A stretch of DNA of 64,000 nucleotides, from assembly GCA_029239875.1 (NCBI GenBank), contig JARBUD010000010.1, positions 1-64,000 on the forward strand, written 5' to 3'. Within the stretch, counting starts at the first letter, position 1. Each line of letters starts with the position of its first letter. A program made the translations under genes and the position numbers. This stretch comes from Xanthobacteraceae bacterium. GTDB taxonomy: Bacteria; Pseudomonadota; Alphaproteobacteria; Rhizobiales; Xanthobacteraceae. This document shows positions 23,381 to 26,559 of the stretch, in pieces. The notes beneath the pieces are model-generated. The model worked only from the letters and a program-made list of their open reading frames with translations. It made no database searches and was not told the origin of the DNA.

Positions 23381-24550
23381 ATGACGAGTGGTCCTGAGAA
23401 TGCCTCCCGGCCCTGGCGCATCGGCGTGCTGTTCTCCGCCACCGGCGTGACCGCGGCGGTCGAGACCTCCCAGCGCGGCGGCACGCTGCTCGCCATCGAC
23501 GAGATCAACGCCGCCGGCGGCGTTCTCGGCCGGCCGGTCGAGGCGGTGGTCTATGATCCGGCCTCCGACCCGAAATCCTATCGCCGCTATGCCGAGAAGC
23601 TGCTCGGCGAGGACGGGGTGCGGCTGATCTTCGGCTGCTACATGTCCTCCACCCGCAAGGCGATCCTGCCGGTGGTCGAGGCCTATCGCGGCCTGCTGTT
23701 CTACCCGACGCTCTATGAGGGTTTCGAGTACTCCCGCCACTGCGTCTACACCGGCGCGGCGCCGAACCAGAACTCGATCCAGCTCGCCAAGTACCTGCTG
23801 GGCACCTATGGCAACCGCTTCTTCATGATCGGCTCGAACTACGTCTTTCCCTACGAGTCGAACCGCATCATGAGCGACTTCGTCATCCAGTCGCGCGGCA
23901 AGGTGCTGGACGAGGTCTATGTGCCGCTCGGCGCCGGCGCGGCCGATTTCGAGCGGGTGATGGCGAAGGTGAGGAAGGCCGCCCCCGACGTCATCTTCTC
24001 CACCGTCGTCGGCGCGGACACGGCGACGCTCTACGAGGCGCACCGCGCCGCGGGCTTCGATGCCGCAAGTCTCCCCATCGCCAGCCTCACCACCGGCGAG
24101 GCGGAGGTGGCGCTGATGGCGCCCGAGGCGGCCGCCGGCCACGTCACCGCCGCGCCCTTCTTCGAGACGCTGGGCACCCCCGCCGCCCGCCGCTTCGTGC
24201 AAGCCTTCAAGGCCCGCAACGGCGCGGATGCGCCGGTGACCGCCGCCGCCGAGGCCGCCTATTTCCAGGTGCATCTCGCCTTGCGCGCCCTCGCCCGCGC
24301 CGGCACCGACGCGCCCGACGCGTTGCTGGCGCAACTCGCCGATTCCGAATTCGACGCGCCGCAGGGCCGGGTCCGCGTCGACGCGCAAACCAATCACACC
24401 TGGCTCTGGCCGCGCGTCGCCCGGCTCGACGGCAAGGGCCGCTTCCAGATCGTCTGGAACCCCGGCACGCGGGTGAAGCCCGATCCCTATTGCGTGGTGC
24501 AGAGCCTCGACGACTGGTCGGCGGACGGCCTGCACCCCGAGCCCTCCTAG
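23381..24550 (+). CDS. amiC: Amide-sensing periplasmic-binding-like regulator (AmiC-like)
   Basis: RIGVLFSATGVTAAVETSQRGGTLLAIDEINAAGGVLGRPVE; adjacent to AmiR-like and AmiE-like genes. Confidence 0.85.
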   Translation: MTSGPENASRPWRIGVLFSATGVTAAVETSQRGGTLLAIDEINAAGGVLGRPVEAVVYDPASDPKSYRRYAEKLLGEDGVRLIFGCYMSSTRKAILPVVEAYRGLLFYPTLYEGFEYSRHCVYTGAAPNQNSIQLAKYLLGTYGNRFFMIGSNYVFPYESNRIMSDFVIQSRGKVLDEVYVPLGAGAADFERVMAKVRKAAPDVIFSTVVGADTATLYEAHRAAGFDAASLPIASLTTGEAEVALMAPEAAAGHVTAAPFFETLGTPAARRFVQAFKARNGADAPVTAAAEAAYFQVHLALRALARAGTDAPDALLAQLADSEFDAPQGRVRVDAQTNHTWLWPRVARLDGKGRFQIVWNPGTRVKPDPYCVVQSLDDWSADGLHPEPS

Positions 24551-24562
24551 AGCGAGGGCGGC

Positions 24563-25165
24563 ATGGCGATCCAGATTCTCAAGGACCTGCGCGGGCTGCG
24601 CGTCCACGTCATCCACCCGCCAGACGAGGAGCGCGGCAGCCTGGTCGAGCATCTGCGCCGCATCGGCTGCATGGTGGAGATCACCTGGCCGGTGCCGGCC
24701 GACTGGCCCGCCGCCGACATCGTGCTGCTCGCCATCGAGCAGGATACGCGGGCCGAAATCCTGAAGCTGCTGAAATCCGATCCGGACGCGCGGCCGACGC
24801 TGATCGCCATCGTCGGCTACGAGAACCCCTCGACGCTGCAGCTCGTGCTGGAATCGGGCGCCGTCGCGGTGGTGGAGCGGCCGATCCGCCCCTTCGGCCT
24901 GCTGACCAACCTCACCATCGCCCGCAGCCTGTGGCTGGAGCGCGAGGAGGCGCGTCGGCGTGTCGCCAAGCTGGAGCGCAAGCTCTCCGGCATCCAGAAG
25001 ATCCAGAAGGCCAAGACCATCCTCATGGAGAGCCAGGGGCTGAGCGAGGAGGAGGCCTATCAGAGCATCCGCCGCCAGGCCATGGCCAAGCGCGTGCCGA
25101 TGGAGGACATGGCGCTCGCCATCATCAACGCCAGCGAATTGCTGAACTTCCGCCCCAAGGCGTGA
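24563..25165 (+). CDS. amiR: ANTAR-domain antitermination regulator (AmiR-like)
   Basis: Pseudoreceiver plus coiled coil and ANTAR-like C-terminus KAKTILMESQGLSEEEAYQSIRRQAMAKRVPMEDMALAII. Confidence 0.88.
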   Translation: MAIQILKDLRGLRVHVIHPPDEERGSLVEHLRRIGCMVEITWPVPADWPAADIVLLAIEQDTRAEILKLLKSDPDARPTLIAIVGYENPSTLQLVLESGAVAVVERPIRPFGLLTNLTIARSLWLEREEARRRVAKLERKLSGIQKIQKAKTILMESQGLSEEEAYQSIRRQAMAKRVPMEDMALAIINASELLNFRPKA

Positions 25166-25203
25166 GGCGTGCCGAACCGGCAACACCGGCATTTGCCGGG
25201 GGT

Positions 25204-25325
25204 GCCGAAGGGCGCTTCGGCTTGAACTCACCGAGCGGCGATGATTAGATGCTCGGCATGGACGCTTTCCGGGCATCTTCGCCCGGCGGCGTCATCTGCC
25301 CGGTCATCGATGCTGCTGATCGGGC
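25204..25325 (+). promoter_or_regulatory. Structured amiE leader: stacked hairpins upstream of terminator
   Basis: GCCGAAG-GGCG-CTTCGGC; CCGAGC(25231-36)/GCTCGG(25251-56); CCGGGC-ATCTTC-GCCCGG (25269-86); GCCCGGTCA/TGATCGGGC (25298-25325). Confidence 0.7.
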
Positions 25326-25334
25326 GCGGCGGTG

Positions 25335-25373
25335 AAGCCCGGAAGGCTCGCGAGAGCCTGTCGGGCTTTTTTT
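25335..25373 (+). terminator. Intrinsic terminator in the amiE leader
   Basis: AAGCCCG-GA-AGGCTC-GCGA-GAGCCT-GT-CGGGCTT-TTTTT. Confidence 0.9.
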
Positions 25374-25521
25374 GTGCCTGGCATCCGGCGGGACGACGCT
25401 GTCCCCGCCGACCCGCAGCGAGAGCCGGCGATCTCCGATCCCGGCACCAGCCATCCCACAACGCAATGGCCCGGCCGCTTGCGCATGAGCGCCTGCGCGC
25501 CTTCACGCGAGGAGAACACCC

Positions 25522-26559
25522 ATGTTGCACGGCGACGTTTCCAGCAGCAAAGACACCGTTGGCGTAGCGGTCGTGAACTACAAGATGCCGCGGCTGCACA
25601 CCAAGGCCGAGGTGCTCGCCAACGCCAAGAAGATCGCCGACATGATCGTCGGCATGAAGACGGGCCTGCCGGGCATGGACCTCGTCATCTTCCCGGAATA
25701 TTCGACCCACGGGATCATGTATGATTCCAAGGAGATGTACGACACGGCCGCCACCGTGCCGGGCGAGGAGACCGAGATCTTCGCCGAGGCCTGCCGCAAG
25801 GCGAAGGTGTGGGGCGTCTTCTCCCTCACCGGCGAGCGCCACGAGGAGCACCCCAGCAAAGCGCCCTACAACACGCTCATCCTGATGAACGACAAGGGCG
25901 AGATCGTGCAGAAATACCGCAAGATCATGCCCTGGGTGCCGATCGAGGGCTGGTATCCCGGCAACTGCACCTATGTCTCGGAAGGCCCGAAGGGGTTGAA
26001 GGTCTCGCTCATCATCTGCGACGACGGCAACTACCCGGAAATCTGGCGCGACTGCGCCATGAAGGGCGCCGAGCTGATCGTGCGCTGCCAGGGCTACATG
26101 TACCCGGCCAAGGACCAGCAGGTGATCATGGCCAAGGCCATGGCCTGGGCGAACAATTCCTATGTCGCGGTGGCCAATGCCGCCGGCTTCGACGGTGTCT
26201 ACTCCTACTTTGGCCACTCGGCGATCATCGGCTTCGACGGCCGCACGCTGGGCGAATGCGGCGAGGAGGAGTACGGCATCCAGTACGCCGCGCTCTCCAC
26301 CTCGCTGATCCGCGACGCGCGCAAGAACATGCAGTCGGAGAACCACCTCTTCAAGCTCGTGCACCGCGGCTACACCGGCATGATCAACTCCGGCGACGGC
26401 GACAAGGGCGCCGCCGAATGCCCCTACGACTTCTACAAGAAGTGGATCGCCGACCCCGAAGGCACGCGCGAGATGGTGGAATCCTTCACCCGCCCGATGG
26501 TCGGCACCGAGGAATGCCCGATCGAAGGGATTCCGAACCCCGATACCGCGCATCGGTGA
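25522..26559 (+). CDS. amiE: Aliphatic amidase (nitrilase superfamily)
   Basis: Catalytic triad context: IFPEYSTHG (Glu), YRKIMPW (Lys), [11 protein letters not shown] (Cys). Confidence 0.95.

Follow-up and report, generated by a model that had tools for sequence, protein, structure and literature searches.

The window, i.e., the whole 64,000-nt stretch of DNA analysed here, belongs to a genome of 5.07 Mb, and named Ancylobacter species are among its relatives of the same genus. An amiC-like gene (23381–24550), amiR (24563–25165), a gap of 356 nt and amiE (25522–26559) follow one another on the forward strand, and domain and gene calls agree with the gene order and the 356-nt gap between the ANTAR-regulator gene and the amidase gene given in the preliminary description. 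The product of the amiC-like gene matches Peripla_BP_5 with 470 bits and is probably the amide sensor and negative regulator of AmiR; most amiE loci of Ancylobacter have a homologue with 75–96% identity 5′ of amiR. AmiR, the predicted ANTAR antiterminator, matches AmiR_N with 133 bits and ANTAR with 57.4 bits (cut-off 27.3), and its best match in the PDB is AmiR of Pseudomonas aeruginosa (1qo0). Its residues Y166 and M174 are the counterparts of the RNA-contacting Tyr164 and Met172 of EutV; in the AmiR alignment of relatives, M174 is invariant and Y166 nearly so. The gene presumed to be controlled, amiE, encodes an aliphatic amidase (equivalog model NF009802, 725 bits, cut-off 427) and is preceded on the forward strand by the ribosome-binding site GAGGAGA at 25509–25515, of which AGGAGA is invariant in 12 Ancylobacter loci. 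AmiR, encoded next to the gap, would be the cognate ANTAR protein of a dual-hexaloop leader.

The DNA downstream of amiR was compared over 30 loci from whole genomes and 80 named loci, and the anatomy of the leader was drawn from about 100 amiR-linked leaders of Ancylobacter, Bradyrhizobium, Methylopila, Aminobacter and others. A set of 58 loci was picked for G at loop position 4 (G4) in both of the hexaloop hairpins described below as P1 and P2. In Bradyrhizobium, Aminobacter and some Ancylobacter, the amiC-amiR-leader cassette precedes a urea/amide-type ABC transporter substrate-binding gene, not amiE (L042–L055 and similar; L018, L020–L022); since the cassette precedes either gene, the switch module appears to be common to two operon types.

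A probable promoter, TTGAAC-17 nt-TTAGAT, lies on the forward strand at 25222–25250, and the Ancylobacter loci have an identical or near-identical pair at the corresponding position. It would set the start of transcription near 25257–25259, and because of this conserved pair the first part of the gap (25166–25257) is placed outside the leader RNA. A strict sigma-70 scan and a terminator scan of the leader detected neither promoter nor terminator, because mismatches interrupt the terminator stem and the -10 element is weak. The 5′ end of the predicted RNA folds into a hairpin, P0 (25261–25293, forward strand), with a pair probability of 0.94–1.0 at most transcript lengths. The stretch just 5′ of P1 is unusually structured in the 58 loci, with a mean z of -2.07 compared with values between -0.51 and +0.31 in five control regions.

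Downstream of P0 lies the first ANTAR-type hexaloop hairpin, P1 (25298–25325, forward strand), with the arms GCCCGGUCA (25298–25306) and UGAUCGGGC (25317–25325), the loop GAUGCU (25309–25314), the closing pair C25308–G25315 and a U·C mismatch below it. The preliminary description had placed these arms correctly and had called the hairpin not a clean hexaloop because the mismatch sits beneath the closing pair; it is in fact the true upstream hexaloop, in which a single mismatch is followed by the C-G pair that closes GAUGCU, and many relatives have a pyrimidine-pyrimidine mismatch at this point. Among the relatives, the P1 stem varies in sequence and length while pairing is retained. The proposed comparison of related leaders revealed strong covariation of this stem: in 40 distinct sequences, the score was 0.487 as against 0.196 after shuffling and a maximum of 0.238 when slid, both sides had changed in 10 of the 11 pairs, and 77 cells were changed on both sides compared with 27 in shuffled alignments. 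The closing C-G pair was invariant (40/40), and the helix was recovered independently by RNAalifold.

The second ANTAR-type hexaloop hairpin, P2 (25328–25339, forward strand), reads GGC[GGUGAA]GCC, is closed by C25330–G25337 and shares its GCC strand with the 5′ arm of the terminator. Only 2 nt (25326–25327) separate it from the full P1 stem; this is the lower limit of the 2–25 nt allowed for the hairpin linker in the available text of PMC8164766. A search for GGC-N6-GCC, in which three Watson-Crick pairs were required and the loop bases were left unconstrained, found the motif at the foot of the terminator in nearly all terminator-bearing leaders. G4 occurs in the P2 loop of 87/95 loci (72/78 when non-redundant), G4 not being imposed; these are the uncircular counts, the G4 in 58/58 of the 58-locus set being circular because that set was selected on G4. 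Other positions of the P2 loop vary (GGUGAA, AAUGUA, ACUGUC, UAGGUA, UGAGCA, GAUGUA), and position 6, which is paired in the terminator fold, is mostly A. The conserved GGC speaks for P2 because the terminator fold leaves it unpaired. Both loops of the window thus have G4 (GAUGCU, GGUGAA) and a C:G closing pair, and from the alignments G4 is all but invariant in both hairpins. Across leaders, the spacing between the P1 and P2 loops is nearly fixed at 15–19 nt, generally about 16 nt and in most leaders 15–18 nt, and the arrangement of the two hairpins arose in 1 of 20,000 dinucleotide shuffles of the leader. Two points count against the ANTAR reading, namely that P2 has only 3 bp and that the linker is shorter than in Enterococcus faecalis. 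The hairpins listed in the preliminary description all lie where it put them, but its list lacked P2, the promoter-like pair and a third hexaloop, P3.

The strong terminator noted earlier in the gap is real: an intrinsic terminator, AGCCCGGaAGGCUCgcgaGAGCCUgUCGGGCU-U7, occupies 25336–25373 of the forward strand with -23.7 kcal/mol, overlaps P2 and excludes it. It is present in nearly all amiE-linked relatives, and the leader as a whole folds better than 200/200 shuffles (z -3.7). When the growing transcript of the window was folded, P0, P1 and P2 were found together up to about 25342, with a P2 pair probability of 0.74–0.90; P2 was formed again in transcripts ending at 25360–25364, and at 25368 the fold consisted of P0, P1 and the terminator, with a P2 probability of 0.0. 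Among the relatives, the minimum-energy fold contained P2 as soon as P2 had been made in 47/58 leaders, and after synthesis of the terminator P2 was lost in 58/58 while P1 was kept in 53/58. In these in-silico folds, P2 and the terminator are mutually exclusive. The exclusivity expected in the preliminary description therefore stands, but the competing arm is a different one: CGGGC at 25321–25325 is complementary to GCCCG at 25337–25341, yet this pairing has a probability of 0.0 in all transcripts ending from 25342 to 25521 because P1 is much more stable, and it is for this reason not the switch, which is predicted to be the pairing of GGC (25328–25330) with GCC (25337–25339). Another candidate antiterminator, formed by the 5′ arm of P0 (GCUUUCCGGGC, 25263–25273) and the 5′ arm of the terminator (GCCCGGAAGGC, 25337–25347), was considered and rejected. 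In the window, this pairing reaches -25 kcal/mol (z -3.8) and is favoured at equilibrium in transcripts ending at about 25346–25356; the complementarity is strong in only a few relatives besides the window and is not conserved in the family, with a mean z of -0.14 over 58 loci.

As judged from the sequence, the leader differs from the published consensus at loop position 1 only. The strict consensus of 2012 has A at position 1 (A1) in both loops, whereas the window has G in P1, in P2 and also in P3; the leader is accordingly called a variant and not a member of the strict consensus, because its loop position 1 departs from the published motif. In relatives, this position is A or G in P1 and A, G or U in P2. 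G1 in P1 is found in Bradyrhizobium, Rhodopseudomonas, the window pair and an A. moscoviensis paralogue, and on the AmiR tree at least 3 changes are forced by well-supported branches, with 5 by parsimony. It has been reported that EutV binds less well and induction falls when A1 is mutated (PMC3369931, available text), which counts against the G1 of the window. According to the accessible part of PMC8934654, Tyr164 of EutV stacks on G4 and A1 is uncontacted, and the structural role suggested for A1 is the prevention of cross-loop pairing. P1 loops in which positions 1 and 5 could pair occur as often as expected (20 observed, 20.0 expected) and such P2 loops are slightly depleted (19 against 24.5), which bears, for P1, on the published idea that A1 blocks cross-loop pairing. 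Relaxation at position 1 is not wholly new, because relaxed ANTAR loops have already been accepted in Actinobacteria (PMC8164766, in the text available). The alignment separates what recognition seems to need (G4, the C:G closing pair and fixed loop spacing) from an apparently dispensable A1, and models requiring A1 in both loops would overlook these leaders. In the Rfam comparison that had been proposed, nothing reached the gathering score over 25000–25700 and no ANTAR family was among the matches listed; at a permissive threshold, the same interval gave sub-threshold matches to unrelated families only.

Taken as a whole, the region is with high probability an AmiR-dependent transcription-antitermination leader, in which the action of AmiR is assigned by homology. 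Onto the structures described above, whose conservation, covariation and mutually exclusive folding are read from the sequences, amide sensing, AmiR binding and antitermination can be transferred by analogy from P. aeruginosa AmiC-AmiR, EutV and NasR. RNA polymerase would start near 25258, and P0, P1 and then P2 (GGC[GGUGAA]GCC) would emerge. Without active AmiR, the terminator strand, complete at about 25366, would take GCC 25337–25339 from P2, and transcription would end at the U7 tract. When amide is bound by AmiC, AmiR would be released; its freed ANTAR domains would grip first the P1 and then the P2 hexaloop, the flipped-out G4 lying against Y166, and the held P2 would block the 5′ arm of the terminator, so that transcription could proceed into amiE and the read-through RNA would then expose the third hexaloop, P3. 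The mechanism class proposed in the preliminary description, ANTAR antitermination with competing hairpins in the amiE leader, is thus retained with other hairpins assigned to it, and of its two options, a divergent ANTAR target or a different mechanism, the first holds, as a position-1 variant, and the second does not.

The amiEBCRS system of P. aeruginosa has the same AmiC-AmiR pair and the same enzyme as the window, although its amiC and amiR come after amiE; in the window both genes precede amiE, and the leader separates amiR from it. P. aeruginosa was absent from the genomes sampled, and four Pseudomonas relatives (L155–L158) with 60–78% AmiR identity took its place; their AmiE is 77–80% identical to that of the window. 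Their amiE leaders have a P1-like hexaloop such as GCAUC[AGCGUC]GAUGU and a P2-like hairpin that overlaps the terminator; no P3 or P0 is visible in them, unlike in the window. The P2-like hairpin of these relatives, GAGC[AAAUGR]GCUC, has U at position 4 in contrast to the G4 of the window, and its loop conflicts with the stated A1/G4 rule. Like the window, the eut leaders of E. faecalis controlled by EutV have two hexaloop hairpins with G4 in both, the second sharing a strand of the terminator (PMC3369931, PMC8934654, available texts), and the P2/terminator switching of the window would correspond to this EutV scheme (PMC3369931, PMC8934654). The window differs from eut in its nearly fixed loop spacing and longer P1 stem, and eutP, according to the text available, needs A1 where the window has G (PMC3369931); no mention of a P3-like hairpin beyond the terminator was found in the accessible parts of the E. 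faecalis eut texts. In the available texts, Klebsiella nasF/NasR and the alphaproteobacterial nas/nos systems of NasT resemble the window in having an ANTAR protein and a terminator, and their leaders have C:G-closed hexaloops with A1/G4 (PMC7496416, PMC3795266, PMC6759348). Their sensor and target genes are unlike those of the window, and the accessible texts describe hairpins only upstream of or within the terminator.

P3 (25387–25409, forward strand) is an ANTAR-type hexaloop hairpin, GGCGGGAC[GACGCU]GUCCCCGCC, with its loop at 25395–25400; C:G closing and G4 are present, and since position 1 is G, a G-U pair within the loop is possible. Its conserved position is about 20–30 nt 3′ of the terminator. 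In a search for hairpins of 4 bp or more, closed by C-G, with a purine at position 1 and G at position 4 and no farther than 65 nt from the U tract, P3 was found in 35 of the 58 leaders, where shuffles predict 3.4, and with A1 and G4 in 32/58 against 0.8; when another base was set at position 4, the counts fell to 2 for A, 3 for C and 0 for U in the 58 leaders. A 700-nt scan around the terminator gave peaks only at the P1 region and at the place of P3. The P3 stem covaries (0.471 compared with 0.208 shuffled and a maximum of 0.212 slid), and P3 with A1 and G4 was replicated in 8 of 9 previously unused loci, where 0.12 were expected. C[AnnGnn]G, the consensus of P3, is identical with the one obtained by SELEX for NasR, i.e., closing C:G, A1 and G4, as given in the available text of PMC7496416.

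In published descriptions, ANTAR antitermination relies on two hairpins and recognition is complete before the terminator, and no mention of a hexaloop beyond the terminator was found in the accessible passages of ANTAR papers. P3 presumably cannot influence termination because it leaves the polymerase only after the U tract. Conservation of a hairpin behind the terminator, across many genera and in both the amidase and the amide/urea-type ABC transport operons, would imply a further step. We regard it as roughly an even chance that alphaproteobacterial AmiR leaders carry a third conserved ANTAR-binding hexaloop, displayed only by read-through RNA and giving AmiR a second job, with A1 dispensable. 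As to what that job might be, the most plausible speculation is that AmiR is captured by the full-length mRNA as negative feedback or is retained on the transcript; it is also conceivable that AmiR is held on the untranslated RNA 5′ of amiE, which is rich in C (up to C 19 and G 8 within 40 nt), or that the hairpin acts on message stability. For the capture of AmiR, EutX of E. faecalis, an RNA that sequesters EutV, offers a comparison.

It is considerably less probable, though it deserves some weight, that the ANTAR resemblance of P3 is accidental and that it serves as an operator in the DNA or simply stabilises the mRNA as a hairpin. An inverted repeat exists in the DNA too, P3 lies beyond the decision point, and it is missing in Bradyrhizobium/Rhodopseudomonas, in the leaders of a nitrilase-superfamily gene and in Pseudomonas amiE leaders; against this stand the asymmetry of the loop, with its G4 preference, C-G closing and A1, as well as its location on the mRNA strand and its replication in unseen genomes, and the asymmetry argues against an operator because a dyad operator would not fix the loop of one strand. 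In one Ancylobacter-genus leader (L013, G015), the U tract of the terminator has been lost while P1 (AAGGAC) and P3 (AAUGCG) are kept, and in its AmiR, His replaces the RNA-contacting Tyr; this single case fits a role of P3 separate from termination. Between P3 and the amiE ribosome-binding site, another apparently conserved hairpin lies at 25462–25483 in Ancylobacter (CGCAA...UUGCG, in a relative CGCAG...CUGCG).

For the leader as such, other explanations have far less in their favour than AmiR-dependent antitermination. An ordinary terminator could end the amiCR message, with amiE transcribed separately and the hairpins incidental, and the terminator does follow amiR directly, while a terminator between regulator and target needs no switch; the promoter-like pair, however, lies upstream of the terminator in Ancylobacter loci, P1 covaries, the loops keep G4 and GGC is conserved though idle in the terminator fold, so that this explanation is very improbable. 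Slightly more improbable still is leader-peptide attenuation, in which translation of an ORF at 25258–25335 (MDAFRASSPGGVICPVIDAADRARR), possibly leaderless, would be coupled to the terminator. This ORF, which reads MDAFRASSPGG..., has its ATG at the predicted start, and ATGGAYGNTTTCCGGGCA is conserved in many Ancylobacter; yet indels destroy the frame after about six codons and stop codons occur at no fixed place, codon 3 has a variable second base but a fixed third one, the ORF is missing in other genera and there is no run of regulatory codons. The leader peptide was rejected on the ground that the frame is not conserved among relatives. Wilson reportedly found in 1996 that the ORF of the P. 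aeruginosa amiE leader has no role, which also counts against it.

The hairpin CCGGGC-AUCUUC-GCCCGG of the preliminary description is present at 25269–25286 and forms part of P0. Loop and stem sequences of P0 differ among relatives with no conserved loop, and P0 is seemingly a conserved structural feature and not an ANTAR loop; the U at position 4 of AUCUUC, where ANTAR hexaloops have G4, is irrelevant because the loop is not conserved. The reading of AUCUUC (25275–25280) as the ANTAR hexaloop, with the arm 25321–25325 competing for 25337–25341, can practically be discarded, for although both hairpins exist and the two segments are complementary, the loop has U4 and is unconserved, the P0 hairpin of the closest relative (L002) has a different sequence, the competing pairing has a probability of 0.0 at all lengths, and P1 keeps its pairs.

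A genome-wide pattern search for further P2-terminator sites showed no enrichment, with 3 matches against 4 in the reversed control; 2 of the 3 matches adjoin ANTAR genes. A second ANTAR-like leader was observed in the same genome, on the contig beyond the window at 72350–72390 (L160, about 1420–1545). It has the hairpins UGAGC[AAGGCU]GCUCA and GGC[AAGGAC]GCC with a terminator, precedes a further AmiC-like/AmiR-like pair together with a urea/amide-type ABC transporter, and about 60 nt separate its two hexaloops.
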